The notes beneath the pieces are model-generated. The model had not been told where the DNA came from. It saw only the letters and a program-made list of their open reading frames with translations, and did no database searches. 41,025 nt of DNA, from assembly GCA_025774245.1 (NCBI GenBank), contig JALGWI010000030.1, forward strand, positions 1-41,025, given 5' to 3'. The position numbers and the translations under genes are program-made. Below, one piece after another: positions 4,227 to 20,952 of this stretch. Every line of letters begins with the position of its first letter. Position 1 is the stretch's first letter. Origin of the DNA: a bacterium. Its GTDB lineage: Bacteria > Joyebacterota > Joyebacteria > Joyebacterales > Joyebacteraceae.

Positions 4227-7200
4227 TTAGTACGTCGCCACCATGTCGAGGAACCAGCCGTAGCGGTCCTCATCGAGGTCCGTGAGGTCGTCGTTGAACT
4301 CCGTGAAGTTGTAGCCGATGCCCACCTTGAGGTGTTCGGTGACGCCGCGATAGATCGCGAGCAGGGCGCCGCGGCGGTGGTCCTTGGTCTCGCGCACCCG
4401 CAGCCACCGGTACTCGGCGAGCGCGTCCCAGTCGTGGCGGATGTGCCAGCGCGCGCGCAGGGCGGCGAAGTCCACGCGGGTGTCGATCCAGCCTTCGGTA
4501 TCGAGCTGCATCCTGACTTCCCCGCGCTTGTGGGCGAGCTTCCCGCCGAGCTCCCAGTGGCGTCCGAACGCGCGAATCGCTTCGAGTGAGAGGACGTGCG
4601 AGCGCTCGTCCATTCGGTCTCCCTCGTCCTGCCCTCTGCTCGGGAGATCGTAGAGGTAGCTGTACTTCCCCAGCAGGCTCACCCGGTTGTGGCCGACCGG
4701 CCGGTAAGCGACGGAGAGGCCCGTCTCCGCGAACTCGGCCTCCGCACAGCCTGCCTCCACGTCCTCGGTCCGCGAGAGGCTGAACTTCCCGGTCGCGGTC
4801 AGCGATTCGTGGGCCCGGTAGGAGAGCGCGTTCGTGGTGACCCACTGCCGCGTCTCCTTCGCTCCGTCGTCCCACCGGTACTCGAGCATCGAGCCGACGC
4901 GCGTTCTCCCGCGCTGGTAGCTCAACGAGAGCGTTCCCACGTTCCGCTCGATCCTGCCGGTCGGGGTCTCGATCTCGCCGGTCTGAAGCGACGCTCCGAT
5001 GGTCGCTCGCCCGTTCGGGATGAAGTCCGCGCCGTAGACGTGCATGATGCCCGGGCGGCCGTCCTCGTGAGCGAACTGGTGCTCCGTGAAGACCCGGAGC
5101 TGGTCGCTCACGGTCCCGCGCTCGCCGACCGTGAACACGCCGCGCTCGCCGTGCACTCTGTCAGTCGACAGCACGTAGGTTCCGTACAGCGTGTGCAGGT
5201 TGGAGAGGGCGTAGTCGGCGCCGACGTCGACGGACTTGCCGCGATCGCCCGTGCTCGCCTCGCCACGGATCGTGAGATCGTCGTAGAGAAGCGCCTTGAG
5301 GCCGAGAGTGGCCATGTCGTTCTTCACGTAGTTGTCGGTTCTGTCGAGCGTGAGCTGCGAGGTCCCGTAGACGTTGAAGGTGCTCGTCACGTCGTAGCCG
5401 AGACGCAACGCGCCGAGCGTGCCGCGCGTGTCGTCGCTCCCGGGCCGGGTTCCCGTCTCGTGACGCATCGCTCCTCCGAGGGTCCACCTCTGGAGGAAGC
5501 GGTAGTCGACCTCAAGATCGTACGTGCTGTCGTCGCCGTTCCCCTCCCGCTCGACCACGGCGCCCCGCGCCAGGACCGAGAGTGATTCCCCGAAGAAGGC
5601 CTGGCCGAGGGCGCCGTACTCGGTTACGCGACTGGTCGACTCGGCGAGGCGGGCGACGGAAAACCCGGCGTCCCGCTGCCTCCACCAGGCCCCCAGGGCG
5701 CCCCTCAGGCCGCCGGTCACGTCGGCGAGGTTGAGGCGCGACTCCACGGCGAACGCGTCGCCGGCGACGTCCTCCGCGGGGGAGGGGACGTTCATCTCCC
5801 CGAAGCTCAGGCCGCCGTCGTAGGAAACGAACGCGCTCGGGGTCTGGCGTGCCTCGCTCGTCGCGTACTCGCACTTGATGTAGCTCCCGCGGTCGGTCTC
5901 GAGCGTCAGGTCGGCTCCCACGAGCTGGTAGTCCGCGCCGTCCCTCTCCTCCCGGACGTAGGTGCCGCCCAGGGCCACCCCGCCCGCGACCCAGCCCTTG
6001 GCCCTGCCGCCGTAGGTGGCGTCGCCGAGGTCGAGGTCGTCGGGGACGTACTCGTAGTCGATCAGGAGAAGCACGTCGCTTCCGTCGAGCGGCAGGTCCT
6101 TGATGATCGACGGTCCGTCCCGATCGGCCGTCTGCGTCAGAGGACGCGAGAGGATGACACGTCCCTGCATCTCGTCGATCTCGTAGTCGCGCCCCTGCAC
6201 GAGCGCGACGCTCTCCAGCGTGCGGCCGGTGGCGCGGTCGCGCACCTCCACGGTGATCTTCTCGGAACCCCGGACGACGTCGGTGTCCCTGAGGTAGTAG
6301 AGGCTGCCGCCGGTGGCCCTGAACTCGTTGTGGGCGAACGCGGTCTGCGCTTCGGCTCCGAACGCGGTCGCCTCCACGCGACGGAGCACGCCGTCGGGCT
6401 GGTGGGCGGTCTTCAGACGAAGCATGGCGCCGTAGAGCGTGCGGTTGTACTGGCCGTACTCGGTTCCCGTGAGGCTCGTGTTGTAGTTGCCCCAGAGCGC
6501 GCGGGAGTCGTCCCAGTCGACCCTCGCGTAGAACTTCCCCTGGCTGTCGGTGTCCAGGAACGTCGTGGAGTCGTCCCCGTACGTGAGGTAGAAGCGGTCG
6601 GGATCGAGATGGCGGAAGGCGGCGCGCGGGTCGCGCCGGTCCAGATTGCGGAAGAGCTCTTCGACGTCGTCCTCCCCCGTGTCCATCTGCGCGGTCACGA
6701 GGTACTTCTCGAGGAACCTGCCCCTGAGGTAGAACGCGAGCCGCCCGTCGACGAACGAGCCGCTATCGAAGTAGCCCTCGCTCGACCGCGATTCCAGGCT
6801 GCTCGCGGCATCGCCCTCACCGACGGTGAGGCTGGCGATCCCCACCAGGAACGAGTACCGGTCGCGGACGTCGATCACGAGATCGTCGGCCCAGCCGCCG
6901 CCGTCTCCGTCCGTCATCTCGACGGCGAGCGAGTGACGGCCGGGCGGTAGCATCATCTCGACGGCGAACCGGCCGTCCGGATCGACCGGGACGCGCTCTC
7001 CGGCGATCCGGAGTTCGGAGGCATCGGGGATGCCCGTGCCGTGGACGCGGACGCGGCTCCCGGCGATCGGGATGGAGCGCCGGGCGAGGTTGCTCGTCCC
7101 GTGGACGATCGCGTCGCCGGCGTCTGCCGTCGTGCCTCCACGGGATCCCTCGGTGCTGGCGGCGCCGTCCGTCAGCCGGAGCGTCCTCGGTTTCGTCTCG

Positions 7201-10200
7201 TCCACGCGTCCGTCGCCGTCGTAGACCTTGAGCACGTAGACGAGCTCGTCGCCGGCACGGAGGGGCGTCGCCGCGTCGGTGTCGCCGGACCACTCGGCGC
7301 GGGCTCCGAATCCGATGGCGTCACCGCTGAGCACCTTGAGAGGCGCGGCGAGGCCGGTCTCGCCGCGTCGGCCGATCGAGATCTCCCATCGATCGACGAA
7401 GGCCCCGTAGTTGCTGTACAGGTTGAACCGCACGGGCTCGACGAGCCGCCCCCCGGCGATCTCGGCCGTGCCCGGCGCGGCGACGTCGAGCCGGGGATCC
7501 GAGACGGCCGCGTCTTCTGTCGCCCACACGACGCCGGAGCCCGGGAGCGAGATCCCGTGGGCGGGCCCGTTGCGCTCGATCGAGGACTCGGTCGGGGGCG
7601 AACCGGTATCGGGCTCGGCGTCTGCGCCAGCGTCCACGCCGGCATCGTCGGCGGGTGACTCACCCTGAGGTCTCTTCGCTGCCGACTCCTCGGGGAGCTT
7701 CACCCCAAAGTCGATGCTACTCATGAGTCCGTGCGTGATGCGCAGGACGCGGGGGTTCTCGGTCGTGAACTCGGCGCCCGAAGGCAGCGTGGTCGGGTCC
7801 ACCTTGACGATGGCGTTCCGTCCCCGGTCGAACCGGCCCGCGTCGACGTCGGCGATGTGATAGCGGCCTCTGGAGTCCGTCTCGATCACGAGGCCCGCCG
7901 GCGTGGCGAGTCGGACGCCCGGGATTCCTTCCTCCTCGATCCCGTGGTTCTCGATCGTGATCCGGAGCTCGTGGGCGCCCGCGTGGCCACCCGGGGTGGG
8001 CACCACGTCCCTCGTGACAACGATTATCTGGGCGTTCGACCCCGTCGCACTGGCGCCGCGGAGCTCCGTCCGGAACCGCCCCTTGGGGTCGATCGTGACG
8101 CTCGTGCCCTCGGCGGTGGTCACGGTGAGGCCGGTGGCCTCCGGGCGCCTCAGGCCGGCACGGACGACGACCCGATGGTGCTCCGGCGGATCGTGCTCGC
8201 CGCAGCGTCCAGGGAGGTCGTCCAGGTCGATGCCGCGCGCGAGCGGGACGCTGCCGTCGCCGATCGCCACCGGACCGTTCCCGTAGTCGACGCTCGTGCT
8301 GTTCGGAACGTAGTTGTCCTCGTCGAGCCCGCCCACGACGTGGAGCCCGGTCGCATACGCGGGTTCCTGCCAGCCGTCACCGTCGCGGTCGTGGAATACC
8401 TTCCCGACGATCGTGGTGCTCTCGAGGAGCGGGTCGCTCGTCACGACGACGGTAGCGCTCGCCGTGTTGCCCGCGATCCCGCTTCCGAAATGTGGCGTGG
8501 CGCTGTTGCGATGCTCGCCGGGGAGGACGCCGGCGCCGATGCGGAGGAGGTAGGTGATCTTCACCGGCTCTCCGTCCTCGAAGTCGAGTGGGCCGAAGAC
8601 GAGCGTCCTGTCGCCTGCCGGAGCGAGAGGGACCCGCTCGTCGTCCGGCGTGTTGATCGCGGCGTCGTGGCCGCCTCGGACGAGCGCTCCCGAACCTTCG
8701 ACGAACTTGAAGCCCGAGGGCAGGCGGTCGTGGAGCGTGATTCCCTCGACGGCCCTGTCGAGCGTGTTCGCAGCAACCAGGGTGTATGCGACGATGTCGC
8801 CCACGCTCGCCTGCTTCTTCGCGGCCACGAGCCTCAGAAGGATGGCGTCCGTCGTGGGGGGCTCGATCGGAGGGTCGCCGTCGAGGTAGTCAGGGACGCC
8901 GTCTCCGTCCGCGTCGTCGTTTGTCGGATCCCCGTCCCCGTCGGCGTCCTCGGCGCCGGCCGTGGCGGTCCCGTCTCCGTCGTCGTCATCGTCGCGCCAG
9001 TCGCGCGCCGCGTCGCCGTCGGTGTCCTGGAGCGAGGCGTTCGATCCGGTCGCGTTGCCCGGGGCGGGGGACGTGACGGTGTCGTAGGCGTCGTCGAGCC
9101 CGTCGCCATCGACGTCTGCGCCCGTCGGGAGGGCGTCCGGAGCTCCGTCGTGGTTCGCGTCGTGGCCCTCGGTGGCGTCGGGGACGTTGTCGTCGTCCGA
9201 GTCGAGGTCGCGGCAGTCCGGCGTGGCATCGCCGTCGGTGTCGACGAGGGCGATCGGCGTTCCACCGCTGTCGGTGTCGTAGGCGTCGTCGAGCCCGTCG
9301 CCGTCGGTGTCCGTGCCTTCGGGTTCGATGTAGCCGAGATCGGGCTGTCCCTCGACGTTGTCCACAATGCCGTCACCGTCCGAGTCGATGTCGAGATCGT
9401 CGGGGACACCATCGGCGTCGGTGTCGAGCCTGCCGTTGCCCTCGTCGGCGTCGGTGAGCCCGTCGCTGTCGTCGTCGATGTCGACGGTGTCCGGAATCCC
9501 GTCGCCGTCCGCGTCGTCGGTCGGATCGGCGTCCAGATAGTCCGGCGTCCCGTCGCCATCGGCGTCGTCGTTGGTGGGATCGCCGTCTCCGTCGGCGTCC
9601 TCAGCTCCGGCCGTGAGGATGCCGTCGCCGTCGTCGTCGTCGTCGCGCCAGTCTCGAGGCGTGTCGCCGTCTGTGTTCTGAAGCGGCGCGTTCGAACCGG
9701 TCGGATTGCCCGGCCCGGGCGCGGCAACGGTGTCGTACGCGTCGTCGAGGCCGTCGCCATCGGCGTCGAAGCCGGTCGGTTCGGCATCGGGCAGGCCGTC
9801 GTGATCGGCGTCGTGGCCCTCGATGGAATCCGGGACGTTGTCGTCGTCCGAGTCGGCATCGACGACGTCGGCAGCCGTGTCACCGTCCGTGTCGACGAGG
9901 GCGATCGGCGTTCCACCGTTGTCGGGGTCGTAGGCATCGTCGAGGCCGTCGCCGTCGCCGTCCGAGCCGGAGGGGGCCACGTAGCCTGCGTCGGGCTGCC
10001 CCTCGATGTTGTCGACCACACCGTCGCCATCGGAGTCGATATCGAGAGAGGAGGGGAGGCCGTCGCCGTCGGGATCGGTGGGGCCGGCCGCCTCCGTAGC
10101 GTCGAGGATGCCGTCGTTGTCGTCGTCGATGTCGACGGTGTTAGGGAGACCATCTCCGTCGGCGTCGTCGGTCGGGTCGTCGTCCAGGTAGTCCGGCGTG

Positions 10201-13200
10201 CCGTCGCCGTCGGCATCGTCGTTGGTGGGATCGCCGTCTGCGTCGGCGTCCTCGGCACCCGCCGTGGGGATGCCGTCACCGTCGTCGTCGTCGTCCCGCC
10301 AGTCGCGGGCGGCGTCGGCGTCGGTGTTCTGGATCGGGGCGTTCGAGCCCGTGGCGTTGCCGGGAGCGGGTCCCGCCACAGTATCGTAGGCGTCGTCGAG
10401 CCCATCGCTGTCGGCGTCCGACCCGGTCGGGACCGCGTCGGGCACGCCGTCGTGATCGGCATCGTGTCCTTCGGTGGCGTCGGGGACGTTGTCGCCGTCC
10501 GAGTCGATGTCCAGAAGGTCCGAGACCGCGTCGGTGTCGGTGTGGATCGGAACCAGCGGAGTCCCGCCCTCGTCGGAATCGTACGCTGCGTCGAGGCCGT
10601 CCCCGTCGGCGTCGGTACCAGCCGGAGGGACGTAGGCGCCCTCTGCCTGGGCCTCGACGTTGTCGACGATGCCGTCGCCGTCAGAGTCGATGTCCTGCGC
10701 CGCGGGCACGCCGTCGCCGTCGGTGTCGGCCGGGCCGGCGTTCTCGATCTCATCGACGACGCCGTCGTTGTCGTCGTCGACGTCCGTGACGTCCGGCACG
10801 CCGTCGCCGTCCGTGTCCTCAGTCGAGTCGGGATCGAGATAATCCGGTGTTCCGTCGCCGTCCCCGTCGTCGTTGGTGGGATCGCCGTCCCCGTTGGCGT
10901 CCTCGTCTCCGGCGGTCGGAACACCGTCCCCGTCGTCGTCATCGTCGCGCCAGTCCCGGATCGCGTTGCCGTCGGTGTCCTGAAGCGGAGCGTTCGAACC
11001 GATCGCGTTCCCGGGTCCGGGACCGACCACGGTGTCGTACGCGTCGTCCAGTCCGTCGTCGTCCGTGTCGAGTCCCGCGGGCGTCGCGTCGGCCGCTCCG
11101 TCGTGATTGGCGTCGTGGCCCTCGATGGCGTCGGGGACGTTGTCGTCGTCCGAGTCGGGATCGAGGACGTCCGGGAGGCCGTCGGCGTCCGTGAGGACCG
11201 GCACCAGGAGGGTGCCCCCACTGTGGGGATCGTAGGCGTTGTCGAGCCCGTCCCCGTCTGTGTCGATGCCGCTGGGCGGGACGTAGGTGACTGCCTCCTG
11301 GGCCTCGACGTTGTCGACGATACCGTCCCCGTCGGAGTCGATGTCGGCGCTGTCGGGAATACCGTCACCGTCCGAATCGACGGCTCCTCCTCCCTCCCCG
11401 GCATCGAGGATGCCGTCGTTGTCGTCGTCGATGTCCGTGACGTCCGGCACGCCGTCGCCGTCCGCGTCGCCGGTCGGGGTGCGGTCCAGATAGTCGGGCG
11501 TGCCGTCGCCGTCGCTGTCGTCGTTGGTCGGGTCTCCGTCTCCGTCGGCGTCCTCGGCTCCCGCCGTGGGGATGCCGTCTCCGTCGTCGTCGTCATCGCG
11601 CCAGTCGCGGGTCCCGTTGTCGTCGGTGTCCTGAAGCGGAGCACTGGAGCCGGTCACGTTGCCGGGTCCCGGCCCTTCCACCGTATCGTAGGCGTCGTCG
11701 AGCCCGTCGGCGTCGCTGTCCGTGCCGGTGGGGCCGACGTCGGGCGCGCCGTCGTGGTTCGCGTCGTGTCCCTCGGTGGTGTCGGGTACGTTGTCGTCGT
11801 CCGAGTCGCCGTCGCGGCAATCGAACACGGTGTCGCCGTCGGTATCGACGGGGATCAGGATCGATCCACCGGTGCTGTCGTCGTAGGCGTCGTCGAGCCC
11901 GTCGCCGTCGGTGTCGACGCCCGACGGGGCAACGTAGCCGTCCTCGGTCTGTGCTTCGACGTTGTCGACGATGCCGTCTCCGTCGGCGTCGATGTCGAGC
12001 TCATCGGGGAGCCCGTCTCCGTCGGTGTCGCCCGTTGCCTCGAGGGCATCGAGGATGCCGTCACCATCGTCATCGATGTCGACGTGGTCGGGGATGCCGT
12101 CGGCGTCGGCGTCGGCCGTCGGATCGGGATCGAGATAGTCGGGCGTTCCGTCCCCGTCGCTGTCGTCGTTGGTCGGATCTCCGTCTCCGTCGGCGTCTTC
12201 GTCTCCCGCTGTGGGGATGCCGTCCCCGTCATCGTCGTCGTCGCGCCAATCGCGTGTCGCGTCGCCGTCGGTGTCCTGGAGCGCCGCGTTCGATCCGGTC
12301 TCGTTGCCGGGCGCGGGTCCGGCGACGGTGTCGTAGGCGTCGTCGAGCCCGTCGATGTCGCCGTCGAACCCGATCGAGACGACGTCGGGTACGCCGTCGT
12401 GATCGGCGTCGTGGCCCTCCACGGAGTCCGGGACGTTGTCGTCGTCAGAGTCGGCATCGCGGGCGACGTAGTCCTCCTCAGCCTGTGCTTCGATGTTGTC
12501 GAGGATGCCGTCACCGTCGGAGTCGATGTCGAGACGGTCGGGAAGACCGTCGCCATCTACATCGGAATCGCCGATGTCCTCGACGCTGTCGAGGATCCCG
12601 TCGTTGTCGTCATCAAGATCGTCCTCATCGACGATGCCGTCGCCGTCCGCGTCGTCGGTCGCGGCCCGATCCAGATAGTCGGGGATGCCGTCGCCGTCGC
12701 TGTCGTCGTTCGTGGGGTCACCGTCGCCGTCGGCGTCCTCGTCTCCCGCTGTGGGGATGCCGTCCCCGTCGTCGTCGTCGTCGCGCCAGTCGCGTGTCGC
12801 GTCGCCGTCGGTATCCTGGAGCGCCGCGTTCGATCCGGTCTCGTTACCGGGCGCGGGTCCGGCGACGGTGTCGTAGGCGTCGTCGAGCCCGTCGCCGTCG
12901 CTGTCGGCGCCCAGCGGAACCGTGTCGGGGATCCCGTCGTGGTTCGCGTCGTGCCCCTCGGTGGCGTCGGGCACGTTGTCGTCGTCGGAATCGAGGTCGC
13001 GAAGATCGGGAGCCGTGTCTCCATCGGAGTGGATCGGCGCGATGGGAGTACCGCCGGCGTCAGAGTCGTACGCGTCGTCGAGGCCGTCGCCGTCGCTGTC
13101 GAGGCCGGACGGGGGGACGTAATCCTCCTCCGACTGCCCCTCGATGTTGTCGACGATGCCGTCGCCGTCGGAATCGATGTCGAGATGATCAGGGACCGCG

Positions 13201-13544
13201 TCCCCGTCGATGTCCGCGGCGCCTTCGCCCTCGATCGTGTCGAGAATCCCGTCACCGTCGTCGTCGACGTCCTCGTCGTCCGATACGCCGTCGCCGTCCG
13301 CGTCGGGCGGGAGATCGGGATCGAGATAGTCGGGCGTGCCGTCGCCGTCCATGTCGTCGTTCGTGGGGTCGCCGTCCCCGTCGGCGTCCTCGCCTTCGGC
13401 CGTCGGGACTCCGTCACCGTCGTCGTCGTCGTCGCGCCAGTCGCGGACCCCGTTGTCGTCGGTGTCCTGAAGCGGGGCGTTCGATCCGGTCGCGTTGCCC
13501 TGGCCCGGGCCTGCCACGGTGTCGTACGCGTCGTCGAGTCCGTC
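4227..13544 (-). CDS. Giant outer-membrane protein, C-terminal part: thrombospondin-3-like repeat rod, DUF11/SdrD-like domains and beta-barrel
   Basis: This is the downstream ~3,100 codons of one gene whose beginning lies at 13544-15859 in another frame; a GTG at 13517 is the first possible start in this frame but lies mid-repeat with no ribosome site. From N to C: eight of nine 217-residue super-repeats of Asp-rich DxDGDGxxD calcium-binding motifs (to ~8866); a DUF11-like domain (~8860-8410; [23 protein letters not shown]); SdrD_B/regulatory-like beta domains (~8400-7690; [25 protein letters not shown]); an acidic Ala/Asp/Glu linker (~7680-7560); an Ig-like domain (~7090-6840); then ~870 residues of alternating amphipathic strands, read as an outer-membrane barrel, ending in the aromatic DMVATY typical of such proteins. 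Motifs [12 protein letters not shown] and [15 protein letters not shown] recur, from memory, in DUF11-barrel proteins of other didermic bacteria. Probable role: a calcium-stiffened rod carried by a membrane barrel; function unknown. Confidence 0.8.
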
Positions 13545-14455
13545 GTGGTGTCCGCGTCCGTATTGACGAGCAGGAGGGGAACCCCACCCGCGTCGGCGTC
13601 GTACGCGTCGTCGAGTCCGTCGCCGTCGCTGTCGATACCGGCGGGCGGTACGTAGGCGCCCTCCGCCTGGCCCTCGACGTTGTCGACGATACCGTCGTTG
13701 TCCGAGTCGATGTCGAGGTGATCGAGCACGCCGTCGCCGTCGGAATCGAGTGCTCCGTCGCCCTCCGTCACGTCGGGCACGCCGTCGTTGTCATCGTCAA
13801 CGTCGATCTCATCGAGGATCCCATCACCGTCCGCGTCGAGCGAGACGTCCGGGTCCAGGTAGTTTGGGGTGCCGTCGCCGTCGTCGTCGTCGTTGGTGGG
13901 ATCGCCGTCGCCGTCCGTGTCCTCGGCCCCGGCCGTGGGCACACCGTCGCCGTCGTCGTCCTCGTCGCGCCAGTCGCGGATCCCGTCCCCATCCGTGTCC
14001 TGAAGCGGCGCGTTCGACCCGGTGTCGCCGCCGGGACCGACTCCGTTCTCGTAGGCGTCGTCGAGCCCGTCCGCGTCGGCATCCGACCCCGACGGCACCG
14101 TGTCGGGGAGCCCGTTGTGGTCCGCGTCGTGCCCCTCGGTGGTGTCCGGCACGTTGTCGTCGTCGGCGTCGAGGTCGAGGTGGTCGGGGAGGGTGTCGCC
14201 GTCGGTGTCGGCCAGCTCGATCGGGGTGCCGCCGCTGTCCGGGTCGTACGCGTCGTCGAGCCCGTCGCCGTCGGAGTCGATTCCCGTGGGCGGGACGTAG
14301 GCGCCCTCGATCTGCGCCTCGACGTTGTCGACGATGCCGTCGCCGTCCGAGTCGACGTCGTGGTCGTCCGGGAGTCCGTCGCCGTCGGTGTCGACGGTTC
14401 CGCCGCCCTCCTGGACGTTGGGGATCCCGTCGCCGTCGCTGTCTGCGTTCACGAC
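8866..14455 (-). repeat. Nine-copy 651-nt (217-codon) tandem super-repeat encoding thrombospondin-3-like calcium motifs
   Basis: Each unit contains [12 protein letters not shown], then DxDGDGxPTNDD, DYLD, [12 protein letters not shown](V/I)[18 protein letters not shown] and GHDA(N/D)HDG blocks. Using the bases encoding the RDWRD block as anchor, copies begin at 8993, 9644, 10295, 10946, 11597, 12242, 12782, 13433 and 13966, giving spacings of 651 (four times), 645, 540, 651 and 533. The 540 unit lacks 37 codons in frame; the 533 unit lacks 118 nt and breaks the frame. Copies are diverged enough to be distinguishable, so this is an old array with later internal deletions. Confidence 0.9.
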
Positions 14456-15859
14456 GATGACAACCGACTGTCCGAAGAAGCTCTCGCGGGCGCACCCGTC
14501 GGTGACGACGAGCGTGATCGAGCACGGCGTGTCGCTGGTCGGAACGGGAGCCGTGTACTGCGTGGAGGCGGCGTTCGGATCCGCGAAGTCGCCGCCGCAG
14601 TCGCTGCTCCATTCGTAGCCGTAGCTCGCGTCGCCTCCGCTGACGACGGCGGAGAGCGACACGGTCTCCCCGGAACCGATCCAGGCAGGAATCGTCGCTT
14701 CGATCTCGAGGCGACTGTCGATGCCGGCCAAGAGCACGAAGTTCAGAAACGCCCTCTGAGCGGCGACGTTCTCCGGGTTCGGGTCCTGGTCGAGTTCCTT
14801 TCCTCCCTCGTACATGACCAGGCCCGCGCCCGGATCGCCGAAGCCGCGGCCCCAGGCGACCGCGGCGGCCGGGCCAGGGGAGAGACCTGGGATGTCGGGA
14901 TGGCTCGGGTCGTAGACGGAGACGACGGTCGACGGCCGCCACCCGCCTTCGAACGGAAGGTAGATCCGCTCGGAGCCGTTGTCGGTCGCTTGGTCGAGGG
15001 GAGGAACGAACTGCATGATCGGGTGGGGCCACGTCGTGTCGTCGTACGTGAAGGGCGGATCGGCGTCCGCGTGGTCGTCCTTGTCGACGAGAGCAGCGAC
15101 GGAGAGGAAGTTCATGTCGGGATCGCTGTCGGGATCACCCGGATCGTCGAGTATCTCCATCTCGCTCGGGGAGTGGGAAGACGCCCAGAGGTACATGCCC
15201 TCGTTCACGCGGGTGAGGATCACGCTGTGGTGGTTCCAGTCGGGATGCGTCTCCGGGAGGGCGAAGAAATCGTCGCAGGCGGTCAGGTCCTCCGCCCTCT
15301 CGATCCGGTAGTGGCTGATCGGGATCTCGGCGTTGTCGAAGTAGTCCGCGACGATCTCGGGCCTGTCGTCGTCCAGAACGGCGACGGGACACGACGTGAG
15401 GACCTCGTAGACGGGTACGCCCTCGATGTCCTCCGCGGTGTACTCGCCGACGACACCGGCGCCTTCCCACACCTCGATGGCTGTCTCGATCGGGCCGTCG
15501 ATGAAATCGCCCGGGACGACGAAGGGTCCGCTTGCGAAGTCCCCGAAGTCCGGGGCGCCGCCGTCGACCTTGCCCGGGTCGATCACCCACCACACCGGGA
15601 CGTGATGGTTCAGGATGAGATCGTAGATGAGGCCGTAGGGCTTGAGCCCGTTCTCGGTGGTCTGGGGCTCCTGCCCCATGTCGACCACGTATGAGCCGGC
15701 GGGGACGGTGAGGTATTCCGTGATCCCGTCGTCGACGGCGCGAGATGTGAGGGGGAGGAGCAGGGACGCAATGGCGAGAAGCGGCAGGAGCGCCTCTCCT
15801 GCCCGGCGCACTGCCGTTCTGTGGACCTTGGGACGGGCGCGCCTCAGGGGCGGGATCAT
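13544..15859 (-). CDS. Giant outer-membrane protein, N-terminal part: signal peptide, N-terminal domain, PKD-like domain and first repeats
   Basis: The start is the ATG at 15859, 8 nt after GGGAAGG; the frame stays open upstream to 16108 but that stretch is Arg/Pro-rich and lacks a ribosome site. The signal peptide has the core [14 protein letters not shown] and a likely cut at SRA. Residues ~35-390 form a globular domain with Trp/His/Asp-rich motifs ([38 protein letters not shown]) that I do not recognise; it could bind or act on a ligand. Residues ~390-470 look PKD/Ig-like ([20 protein letters not shown]). The Asp-rich repeat array follows. At ~13544 the frame leaves the repeat consensus and enters Thr/Arg-rich nonsense, while the consensus continues in the frame of the downstream part; the two parts are therefore one gene of ~3,900 residues with a 118-nt deletion in the repeat. 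Confidence 0.75.
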
Positions 15860-16159
15860 GGCAGCCTTCCCGTTGAGCCCGGTTCCCCGGATCCGGGAAC
15901 GGGGCGACGGCACGTCGTTGCGCGTGCGAAACGAGGCACCTTCGTCCGCCGTCTCGGCTCCGGTCGTGGAGCGCATCGCGGTGATCGGGGGCCCGGGTGG
16001 CAGCCGCTCCGGCGGCCGTGGCGGCCGGTGCGAGCCCGCCAGGGTCCAAGCCACCGCACACCCAGTATCAAGAATATCATGCCCGGCGACCGAGAGCGAG
16101 CGGCGCATGAGCGCCTCGGTTCGGCGTCGCGCGCGGCGCCCCGGCTGTGAGGCGGAGTC

Positions 16160-16223: not shown

Positions 16224-16313
16224 GAGTGCGCCGCAAACCTGATCGAAGAAGACAGTGGAGCCACTGGGGGCCCGTTCCCCCGTTGTGCAACTACGTACAG
16301 GAGGGCGATCGAC

Positions 16314-18863
16314 ATGCCGCTCATGGATGCGAAGTCCGGAACGATCCGCAAAGGCTACAGCGTGGAGGAGCTCAAGGAGGCCGCGAACCTGATGCGTGGC
16401 TACGACCTCGTGTCTCTCGCCGCGGCCAAGTCAGGGCACTCGGGTGGCACGCTGTCGATCATGGACATCACAGCGGCCCTCTACCTGCACGAGGCGAACC
16501 ACGATCCGAAGGATCCGCTCTGGGCCGACCGGGACAGGATCCTGTGGTCCGCCGGCCACAAGGCTCCGTCGCTCTACCTCGCGCTCGGCATGGCGGGCTA
16601 CTACGACGTCGAAGACGTCATCACGCTCCGCAGGCTCTACTCTCCCTTTCAGGGACACCCGCACTGGACGAAGCTGCCGGGCATCGAGGCGTCGACCGGT
16701 TCGCTCGGTCAGGGACTCTCGATCGCGGTCGGGAGCGCGCTCGCGGCGAGGCTCAACGGCAAGGACTACCGCGTCTACTGCCTGATGGGCGATGGTGAGC
16801 AGCAGGAAGGCCAGATCTGGGAAGCGGTCATGGAGGCCGGGCACTACAAGCTCGACAACGTCTGCGGGATCATCGACAAGAACCGCCTTCAGATCGACGG
16901 CTGGGTCGAGGAGGTCATGAACGTCGACCCGCTCATCGACAAGTACAAGGCCTTCAACTGGAACGTCATCAGGATCGACGGGCACGACATGGGTCAGATC
17001 GTCCAGGCGTTCGAGGAGGCGAGGACCGTCAAGGGCATGCCGACGCTCATCCTCGCGGACACGACGAAGGGGAAGGGCGTCGATTTCATGGAGGACGTCG
17101 CCGGCTGGCACGGGAAGCCGCCGAACGAGGAGCAGATGTGGGAGGGCCTGAAGCAGCTCGGCCTCGACGAGAAGATCCCCGTCAAGAAGCTCTTCAAGCG
17201 CGTCGAGGAGTACCAGAAGAAGGTGACGAAGGAGCTCGAGGCGAAGCAGCCGAAGTTCTCCAAGAACTACTTCTGGAACGAGACGAAGAACATGAAGGCC
17301 GACATGGATCCCACGAGAAAGGGATTCGGTCGAGCCCTCGCGGATCACGGTGACGACAAGCGCGTCTGCTGCCTCGGCGCGGACATCTCCGGCTCGATCA
17401 CCATCAGCCAGTTCTACGAGAACCATCCGGACAGGAAGGACCGGTGGTTCTCGATGGGGATCGCCGAGCAGTCGGGCACCGGCGTGTGCGCCGGCCTCGC
17501 GAAGGAGGGGAAGCTGCCCGTCTTCGGGACCTACGGCGTCTTCGCTTCCGGAAGAAACCTCGACCAGATCCGCACGACGGTCTGCTACGGGAACTTCAAC
17601 GTGATGATCGCCGGTGCGCACGGCGGTGTCTCGGTGGGTCCGGACGGAGCGACGCACCAGGCCCTGGAGGAGCTCTTCCAGATGTGCGGACTCCCGAACA
17701 TGCACGTCGAGGTGCCGTGTGACTCCATCGAGACGAAGCGTGCAACCGAGCACCTGCTCTTCAAGGTGAAGGGTCCGAAGTACGTGCGGTTCGCCCGTGA
17801 GGCCACGCCCGTCGTGACCGACCTCGAGACCCCCTACGTTTACGGGAAGGCCAACGTCATTCGCTTCCGCGGCGCGAAGGCCGATTTCAAGGATGCGTTC
17901 GATCACTACCTCGCCTCGAAGTACAAGAGCGAGGGCGAGGACATCGCGATCATCGCGTGCGGACCCTCGGTGCCGGAAGCCATGCGAGCCGCCTGGATTC
18001 TCAAGGAGGAGTACGACATTGAGACGCGGGTGGTGAACGTCCACTCGGTCAAACCGCTCGACGAGTCCGCGATCGTCAAGGCGGCGTACGAGACGGGCGT
18101 CGTCGTGACCGCCGAGGAGCATCAGGTCGGCGGGTTCGGGAACCAGGTCGCGGCTGCGATCGGTAAGTCGAAGAAGGTGTATGGGACGCCGATGATCATG
18201 GGGATGATCGGTGTTCTTGACCGGTTCGGCGAGTCGGGCGCGCCGTGGGAGCTCGTGAAGGAGTTCGAGGTCTCGGCCGAGCACATCGCGGCGGAGGCGA
18301 AGAGGCTCTACGATCTGAAGGTGAAGGAGCTCACGAAGAAGGCGCCGGCCAAGAAGAAGACAGCGCCGAAGAAGAAGCCGGCCAAGAAGAAGGTGGCCAA
18401 GAAGAAGGTGGCCAAGAAGAAGGTGGCCAAGAAGAAGGTGGCCAAGAAGAAGGTGGCCAAGAAGAAGCCGGCGAAGAAGAAGGTGGCCAAGAAGAAGCCG
18501 GCGAAGAAGAGGGTGGCCAAGAAGAAGCCGGCGAAGAAGAGGGTGGCCAAGAAGAAGCCGGCGAAGAAGAGGGTGGCCAAGAAGAAGGTCGCAAAGAAGA
18601 AGCCGGCGAAGAAGAAGGTCACTAGGAAGAAGCCGGCGAAGAAGAAGGTCACTAGGAAGAAGCCGGCGAAGAAGAAGGTCACTAGGAAGAAGACCGCGCC
18701 GAAGAAGAAGGTCGCGAAGAGGAAGACGGCGAAGAGGAAGGTGGCCAAGAAGAAGGTGGCCAAGAGGAAGACGGCCAAGAGGAAGACGGCGAAGAAGAAG
18801 GTCACCAGGAAGAAGACCACGAAGAAGAAGGCTGCGCGGAAGCCCGCGCGGAAGAAGCGCTAG
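16314..18863 (+). CDS. tkt: Transketolase with long lysine/alanine-rich C-terminal tail
   Basis: The ATG at 16314 follows AGGAGGG by 8 nt; the frame is open further upstream but without a start signal. The 849-residue product has a complete single-chain transketolase (residues 1-~670): the thiamine-diphosphate motif [14 protein letters not shown] near residue 158 with downstream IIDKNRLQ, the substrate/cofactor His motifs [15 protein letters not shown] and GWHGKPP, the catalytic-Glu segment MGIAEQSG near residue 380, and the C-terminal domain ([20 protein letters not shown]). It transfers two-carbon units between sugar phosphates in the non-oxidative pentose phosphate pathway. Residues ~674-849 are an extra tail of [10 protein letters not shown] repeats resembling histone H1-like bacterial proteins; transketolases normally stop at ~620-670 residues. 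It is transcribed alone, from its own promoter to a strong terminator. Confidence 0.95.
18333..18860 (+). repeat. Tandem 15-nt repeats encoding the lysine-rich tail of transketolase
   Basis: AAGAAG-rich codons repeat with a period of mostly 15 nt (one KKKVA or KKKPA unit), becoming KR/KT-rich after ~18690. Runs of identical units at 18370-18460 and related units to 18680 suggest growth by slippage. Base use is A/G only on the coding strand, unlike the rest of the window. Confidence 0.9.
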
Positions 18864-18892
18864 ATCGGTCCGACCAGCTCGCGGAGAAGCAG

Positions 18893-18925
18893 ACGGGCCG
18901 CCCCCTCTTGGGGCGGCCCGTTTAG
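18893..18925 (+). terminator. Intrinsic terminator after transketolase
   Basis: A perfect 12-bp GC-rich stem (18893-18904 with 18910-18921, 5-nt loop) ends in TTTAGTTT, 30 nt past the stop codon. Confidence 0.85.
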
Positions 18926-18974: not shown

Positions 18975-20459
18975 TTACCGCGACTTCGCCGCGCACCTCA
19001 TGATGATGTCGATCGCCTTCCGGGCCGCGGGGATCTGTCCCTCCTCCGAGAGCCAGAGTGTCAGCGCAGCGTACTTCCCTGTCTCCGGGTCCCGAGTCCG
19101 CTCGGGAAACGCCGTCTTCCGGACGTCGAGCTTGAGGTCCGCCGGGAAGCACGGCCCGAAGCCGGGGCCGAGGGCGAGCCTGACCGCGTGCGAGCCGATC
19201 GCGAGCGTGGCGAGGCGCTTCCCGCGGTGCCGGAACTCGAGGTCCTTCTCACCGACCACCATCGCGTCGCCGGCAAGTCCGTGCGTGAGGGCGAGGTGCT
19301 CGACGATCGCCCGGAACACGCCGCGGATCGGGAACGTCGGCATTTGGTCGGCGAGTCGTTGTACCGTCGTCGCGATCTGCCGCTCCGTGTCCGGGAGGAG
19401 GTTCCGCATAACGAAGTCGCGGACGTTCTCCCTCGCGAGCTTCCCCGGCGCGTGCTCGGCAAGAAGATCCGTCAGGAGATCGGCGGCGGCATCCTCGTTC
19501 GACCTGACCGTCCGCAGGAGCGCGGAGTCGATCGGCTCATCGCCCGTCCGAGCGCCCCGCGCCCCGAGCTCGTAGACGACGGCGTGGAACGGGTGGATGG
19601 CATCGAACCCGGAGCCGTAGACGATGTCGGCGATGCGTCCCTCGGGGACCATCGCGCTCGCGTCCTTGTGTCCGAGGCGTCCGGCGACACGGCGGACGTC
19701 GCGGGCGAGGATCGCTATCTCCTCATCCGGGCCGTCCGCGAACCCGAGGCAGACGTCGTTGTCGATCGGCCCGACGTCGTAGATCGCAACGGCGGTGATC
19801 GGCCCGCGGGGCGGGTGGACGAGGACGTTCCCCGATGACACGAGCCGCCGGAGCCGTCGGCGCGTCAGCGCTCGGAACTTCCAGCCAATGGCGAGAAGCC
19901 CTCCGGTGCGCTCGTAACACTCGGAGTTCCGGATGAAGGCCTGCACCTGGTCGAACTCGGAAGGCGTCGCGACGCGCCCCTTGAGCGCTCCGCGCGTCCG
20001 CGCCTCTCCCCACATCCAGCGCGTTCGCGCGATCTGCCAGAAGCCGCTCTTCTCGCCGAGGTGGCGGGACGCCGTATTGACGGTCGCTGTCGAGTAGCGG
20101 ACGGTCCTGGGTTCGAGCTTCATTGCTTCGCCGAAGGTCACCTGGTTGATCTGGCTGGAGAGACCCTTGCCCTGGAGGTCCGGGTGAAGGCGGAGACCCT
20201 CGAGCCAGATCTCTCCGGGTGCAAGGACGGAGATCTTCGACATGCCGACGGGCCTGCCGTCAAGACAGGCGGTGAGGAGGATGCCCTCGGGGTCTTCGAG
20301 CCAGCGGTCCCAGATCAGCGGGAGGTAGTCGCCGCCACCCCAGATCTGCTCGGACATCGAGAGGATCGCGTCCCGGTCCTCCGGGCGCGCCCTGCGGACA
20401 ATGAGCCTCTCGCGGGACCGTGCGGTCCCGCGAGGGCGCTTGCGTGTCTGGGGAGCCAT
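18975..20459 (-). CDS. GNAT-family N-acetyltransferase with a large uncharacterised C-terminal region
   Basis: The ATG at 20459 is preferred because the reading frame upstream overlaps the peroxiredoxin gene; the product is 494 residues. Residues ~20-165 are a GNAT domain: LIVRRARPEDRDAI at the first strand, then the acetyl-CoA pyrophosphate-binding motif A (LRLHPDLQGKGLSSQI) and the A(N)xA(S)xxxxEKxGF-like segment NTASRHLGEKSGF. The remaining ~320 residues match nothing I can name; parts (ITAVAIYDVGPIDND, VPEGRIADIVYGSGF) could be a second, degenerate GNAT fold, and the C-terminus has an all-beta to helix pattern. It may acetylate a small molecule or protein; the substrate is unknown. It lies 31 nt downstream of the peroxiredoxin gene, probably in the same transcript. 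Confidence 0.8.
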   Translation of the reverse strand: MAPQTRKRPRGTARSRERLIVRRARPEDRDAILSMSEQIWGGGDYLPLIWDRWLEDPEGILLTACLDGRPVGMSKISVLAPGEIWLEGLRLHPDLQGKGLSSQINQVTFGEAMKLEPRTVRYSTATVNTASRHLGEKSGFWQIARTRWMWGEARTRGALKGRVATPSEFDQVQAFIRNSECYERTGGLLAIGWKFRALTRRRLRRLVSSGNVLVHPPRGPITAVAIYDVGPIDNDVCLGFADGPDEEIAILARDVRRVAGRLGHKDASAMVPEGRIADIVYGSGFDAIHPFHAVVYELGARGARTGDEPIDSALLRTVRSNEDAAADLLTDLLAEHAPGKLARENVRDFVMRNLLPDTERQIATTVQRLADQMPTFPIRGVFRAIVEHLALTHGLAGDAMVVGEKDLEFRHRGKRLATLAIGSHAVRLALGPGFGPCFPADLKLDVRKTAFPERTRDPETGKYAALTLWLSEEGQIPAARKAIDIIMRCAAKSR

Positions 20460-20490
20460 CTCGGGGAGATCCCTGTGTGTGTGCCGACTC

Positions 20491-20952
20491 CTAGGCGAGA
20501 TCGAGTTCGTCGATCGTCGCGATGATCTCCTTGGCATGTCCGGTGATACTCACCTTCGGCCAGACGCGACGGACCTTCCCCTTCTTGTCGATCAGGAAGG
20601 TCGCGCGCTCGGCCATGCCGGTCGGCTTGAGCACGCCGTAGCCCTTGGCGATCTTGCCGCCGTCGTCTGCCAGGAGCGGGAACTCCAACTCGTTGTTCGT
20701 GGCGAAGCGCCCGTGCGACTCGACGCTGTTCGTGCTGACTCCGATGACCTCGGTGTCTCGCTTGGTGAACTCGTCCACGGCGTCCCTGAGGGCACGAACC
20801 TCGCGAGTGCAGCCCGGGGTGTTGTCCTTGACGTAGAAGAAGAGCGCGACGTTCTTCTTCCCCTTGAGCTCGGAAAGCGAGAGCTTCGAGCCTTCCTGCG
20901 TGGGGGCCGAGAACGAGGGCGCCGTGTCTCCCGGCTTCAGATGTGTCGGCAT
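20491..20952 (-). CDS. bcp: Thioredoxin-dependent peroxiredoxin, BCP/PrxQ family, single-cysteine type
   Basis: The ATG at 20952 follows a strong AGGAGGT by 4-6 nt. The 153-residue product has the AhpC/TSA fold start (LKPGDTAPSFSAP) and the peroxidatic site VKDNTPGCTREVRAL. It reduces hydrogen peroxide and organic hydroperoxides in the cytoplasm. The active Cys is the only cysteine in the protein: the resolving Cys that most PrxQ enzymes carry five residues later is Val-Arg-Ala-Leu here, so it must be a 1-Cys enzyme regenerated by an outside thiol. The downstream GNAT gene is 31 nt away. A promoter match lies at 21076-21104 and a 9-bp inverted repeat in the leader. Confidence 0.93.
   Translation of the reverse strand: MPTHLKPGDTAPSFSAPTQEGSKLSLSELKGKKNVALFFYVKDNTPGCTREVRALRDAVDEFTKRDTEVIGVSTNSVESHGRFATNNELEFPLLADDGGKIAKGYGVLKPTGMAERATFLIDKKGKVRRVWPKVSITGHAKEIIATIDELDLA

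Follow-up and report, generated by a model that had tools for sequence, protein, structure and literature searches.

A polybasic, histone H1-like C-terminal tail on the transketolase of a bacterial phylum

The window considered here, a stretch of 41,025 nucleotides, is contig C20 of a 3.23 Mb genome that is distributed over 128 contigs and is 97% complete. It carries a transketolase gene whose reading frame (16314–18863) is open throughout, with a single stop at its end, and which encodes a protein of 849 aa, in which an intact transketolase portion (aa 1–670) is joined in frame to a tail of 179 aa. The elements of the gene, all on the forward strand, are the following.

16299..16304, +, AGGAGG, Shine-Dalgarno-like by sequence, 9 nt upstream of the ATG at 16314
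16314..18863, +, whole gene, transketolase with polybasic C-terminal tail, 849 aa (ORF, domain searches)
16377..17249, +, Transketolase_N, thiamine diphosphate-binding, aa 22–312 (Pfam), with the GDG...N motif at aa 159–190
17313..17807, +, Transket_pyr, aa 334–498 (Pfam), with the GIAEQ motif around E385
17919..18287, +, Transketolase_C, aa 536–658 (Pfam)
18324..18860, +, polybasic tail, aa 671–849, with 91 K, 14 R and 1 D/E, net charge +104
18347..18815, +, 15-bp tandem array coding for most of the tail, consensus GGCCAAGAAGAAGGT (repeat analysis)
18891..18923, +, terminator-like hairpin of 14 pairs, 27 nt past the stop

An Rfam search of the window returned no match. The giant aspartate-rich repeat protein encoded at 4227–16108 on the reverse strand looks by eye like a calcium-binding TSP3-type protein; it occupies two reading frames, and a frameshift is apparent near 13.5–13.8 kb. 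Convergent with the transketolase lies a gene for a GNAT acetyltransferase (18975–20537, reverse strand) that is distantly like NAT16; it adjoins the tailed transketolase in nearly all loci with enough flanking sequence, the exception being G013 (L051), and is not seen next to the tailless L050 and L052. A functional link between the tail and this acetyltransferase was considered and is kept as a lead, since no NCBIfam model matches the protein and its likeness is to NAT16.

The transketolase portion has the features of an ordinary single-chain enzyme. The 849-aa protein passes the Pfam cut-offs for all three domains and scores 661.6 bits with the NCBIfam transketolase equivalog NF004559 (cut-off 488), with whose members it also shares the GDG...N and GIAEQ motifs. 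Residues G159, D160, G161, N190 and E385 are invariant in an alignment of 20 transketolase orthologs, and the core is homologous to solved structures of both the human TKT type (PDB 6rjb) and the split-chain type (6yak/6yaj). Judged by these conserved motifs, the tailed enzyme is probably competent for ketol transfer. The AlphaFold2 model of the tailed protein, built from a 20-row alignment, was poor over its whole length (mean pLDDT 45, pTM 0.36).

The tail, from approximately aa 671 to 849, consists of K and R to 59%, contains one acidic residue and is presumably disordered. Its underlying array (18347–18815) comprises 30.9 copies of a degenerate 15-bp unit with 76% matches, although the exact copy number is uncertain because tandem repeats of this kind are prone to misassembly. 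The original prediction of one intact gene joining a transketolase to an H1-like tail is thus borne out by the single open frame and the complete set of domains, and the tail of some 176 residues that it described is real, with a size of 175–179 aa that varies with the choice of boundary. The terminator of the original prediction corresponds to the 14-pair hairpin 27 nt after the stop. The description of the array as made of purine-only codons does not hold, as its codons for V, A, P and T contain pyrimidines.

In its general build the tail is a K/A/P-rich, tandemly repeated basic C-terminal extension of the type known from AlgP and PhaF of Pseudomonas, which likewise carry a long H1-like tail made of degenerate short tandem units behind a different N-terminal part. 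Contiguous KPAA repeats were looked for in the tail units and are not present; in AlgP such units follow a helical N-domain, whereas here other units follow an enzyme of central metabolism. The histone H1-like HC2 profile (PF07382) matches aa 675–779 with an E-value of 3.3e-8 and, for the whole protein, 34.3 bits, below its cut-off of 40, and reaches 43.5 bits in the genome search when summed over neighbouring stretches. The likeness to HC2 is one of composition: HC2 is a free small basic protein, but the tail is fused to transketolase in 18/18 genomes.

The distribution of the tail was followed in a sample of 20 genomes of this uncultured phylum, all of one family. A transketolase ortholog was found in 18 of them, the window genome included, and the 17 others share 77–87% identity with it; the two genomes that gave no full match are incomplete, one of them (G015) having only a fragment at a contig end. 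All 18 orthologs, which come from separate assemblies, carry a basic tail at the same place, beginning after the same AKRLYDLKV-type segment, with lengths of 31–179 aa, the tail of G012 being cut off by a contig end. In every relative the junction is free of stops and frameshifts, and the tail never occurs as a gene of its own downstream; either outcome would have spoken against the original prediction. The presence of a tail in each of the 18 makes it a real and selected feature. An artefact of assembly or binning that fused a transketolase to an H1-like gene might be suspected in a metagenome-assembled genome with tandem repeats; the recurrence of the tail at the same junction region in 18 separate assemblies, together with the position of the H1-like gene on a different contig (C9), makes this explanation barely credible.

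Outside of the phylum the tail is absent from the orthologs examined. The nearest ones, labelled Zixibacteria or from other phyla (59–74% identity), end within 2–11 residues of the AKRLYDLKV-type segment, no tail was found on reading the sequence of the ortholog of G122, from another phylum, and none is present in the long open frames of more distant transketolases in G304 and G263, also of other phyla. In a maximum-likelihood phylogeny built from the enzyme cores, all tailed transketolases form one clade with 100/99 support, the neighbours of which are tailless. Split chains, a classical enzyme and DXS, the three transketolase-like paralogs encoded in the same genome, end in the ordinary way and have no tail.

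Few proteins of this lineage bear a lysine-rich extension. In a proteome sample taken from the sister genome G001, consisting of 787 kb or a quarter of that genome with 558 genes called by a simple ORF procedure, the last 30 residues are strongly basic in three genes, and the transketolase, whose last 30 residues are lysine-based with a net charge of +19, is the only one of the 558 with a lysine-rich C-terminal tail. The other two are an R-rich protein and a protein with an RGG-type tail, which by eye has a KhpB/Jag-like start (G001:C18:275122-275874, forward strand, within L131). DNA gyrase B bears the other lysine-rich extension of the C18 sample, at its N-terminus (L131:2349-4661, reverse strand). 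A K/P/A-rich basic extension of this kind, of approximately 60–150 aa, was found on gyrase B in 18/19 genomes of the phylum (L212–L230); that of G003 is arginine/lysine-rich, and in G008 (L215) the frame is apparently shifted just before the catalytic part. The HC2 profile matches in 14/20 genomes, and in most of these the match comes from a small H1-like gene of its own, whose product starts with MAVKK or similar; in the window genome this frame encodes 143 residues beginning with MAVKK (L082, G000:C9:4299-4724, reverse strand), and counterparts exist in most of the phylum.

Further extensions are patchy. Lysine-rich ones were seen on Fpg (G011) and on a Rho_N/DUF4912 protein (G006), and the gamma subunit of 2-oxoacid:ferredoxin oxidoreductase (KorC) has a basic C-terminal tail which is long in G018, G019 and G009 and absent in G001, G002, G003 and G011. 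FlpD/MvhD subunits have a basic extension in parts of the phylum as well, and in G018 a FlpD/MvhD with a GAKKA-repeat N-terminus is encoded on the same contig as the tailed KorC (loci L158–L160, L083, L087). At L085 and L103, from two genera, a FlpD front continues in frame as a KorC end (...ISAAEAPMRKALPSSVPERF...) followed by a basic tail; these are short contigs, and the joined frame is possibly an assembly chimera. The KorC tail has thus come and gone, while the transketolase tail has not, and the original premise that such tails are confined to nucleic-acid-binding proteins has to be relaxed to include these redox subunits.

The way in which the transketolase tails diverge is informative about what is being kept. 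Their median identity is 26%, as compared to 80% for the cores, and between genera they are nearly unalignable. Across the 18 orthologs the tails nonetheless remain at 37–59% K+R with net charges of +15 to +104, while the cores range from -17 to +6. Pooled tail codons comprise 526 AAG, 56 AGR and 14 GAR, several of the last lying at the G007 and G009 junctions; the core counts are 162 AGR vs 796 GAR. The steps from AAG to AGG (arginine) and to GAG (glutamate) are the same kind of single A-to-G change and equally easy. Pairwise dN/dS between close relatives is mostly 0.14–0.53 in the tail and 0.04–0.13 in the core. These codon and dN/dS figures are descriptive, because the counts are non-independent events and close pairs share history. 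From the low identity, the codon bias and the dN/dS, it follows that length and order drift through gain and loss of repeats with the charge being held; it is charge and composition that selection keeps in the tail, rather than sequence or length.

This pattern also bears on whether the tail might be a neutral product of slippage, arising where a GC-rich genome lets AAG-rich arrays grow and possibly started from the H1-like gene. The 15-bp tandem array, the nearly sixfold variation in length and a dN/dS that is higher in the tail than in the core (up to 0.88, in a single pair that differs by only 4 changes) are in line with such an origin. A neutral array is nevertheless quite improbable, as the tail is found in 18/18 genomes and such tails are rare elsewhere in the sampled proteome, acidic codons are nearly absent despite being one A-to-G step away, and the KorC tail, in contrast, came and went. 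Slippage, which had been offered originally as one origin of the tail, consequently accounts for its length in 15-bp units but not for the persistence of its charge.

The tail could instead serve the enzyme itself, by drawing in its anionic substrates, by aiding assembly or by recruiting an acidic partner enzyme. The substrates of transketolase are sugar phosphates, and the patchy extensions of the KorC and FlpD subunits would be compatible with a role at this level. However, the three paralogs encoded alongside it and the orthologs found in other phyla do without a tail, and a length range of 31–179 aa suits a precise active-site role poorly, which leaves such a function rather improbable.

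The best reading of the tail is that of a polyanion tether. In the model proposed here, the phylum's ancestor would have had a competent single-chain transketolase that acquired a C-terminal tail, polybasic and presumably disordered, following which selection would have maintained the charge and composition of the tail. The tail would act as a non-specific electrostatic anchor of the enzyme on nucleic acid, be it nucleoid DNA or RNA and ribosomes, in the manner proposed for the K/P/A-rich tails of AlgP, PhaF and Streptomyces TopA, with a benefit that may consist, for example, in supplying pentose phosphates near the site of nucleotide consumption or in a second role in the nucleoid. We put the probability of such a non-specific nucleic-acid tether at approximately 55%. 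It is preferred because of the published links of such tails and because of the company of gyrase B and the H1-like protein. DNA-binding proteins of prokaryotes show an enrichment of low-complexity regions rich in lysine (PMC6821194); the tail of AlgP/PhaF both binds DNA and sets the position of polyphosphate or PHA granules, the AlgP tail being required for granule spacing and KPAA peptides binding DNA (PMC9239181); and the lysine repeats of Streptomyces TopA stabilise it on DNA (PMC7398561). It has to be noted that redox subunits without a known nucleic-acid role bear similar extensions, which counts against the tether.

Composition alone does not tell DNA, RNA, polyphosphate and membrane apart as the partner of the tail. 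A different polyanion, such as polyphosphate granules or anionic membrane lipid, on which transketolase would be stored or placed, is an unlikely partner, even though polyphosphate granules are where AlgP, whose tail is very similar, is located (PMC9239181) and no sequence specificity needs preserving in the transketolase tail. Gyrase B, which bears the second basic extension seen phylum-wide, is a DNA enzyme, and an amphipathic membrane anchor is absent, because the tails of the 18 orthologs contain only 0–3 large hydrophobic residues.

With respect to known systems, the nucleic-acid tether would have a counterpart in the actinobacterial topoisomerase I (TopA), which is also an enzyme with degenerate C-terminal lysine repeats of variable length; TopA, however, acts on DNA, which transketolase does not. 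The enzyme and the type of tail are each known separately, and their combination was not met in the literature searched: no report of an H1-like tail fixed phylum-wide on transketolase was found there, in sources mostly outside subscription journals. Somewhat more tentatively than the tether itself, the phylum may have fixed a nucleic-acid anchor on one transketolase, alongside an extended gyrase, such that pentose-phosphate chemistry would take place on the nucleoid or RNA, or the enzyme would double as a nucleoid protein. What is at hand is an H1-like tail kept by selection, phylum-wide, on an enzyme of central carbon metabolism. With this system it can be tested whether bacteria physically tie the metabolism of sugar phosphates to their nucleoid or to RNA, for which the natural series of tail lengths, from 31 to 179 aa, is available.
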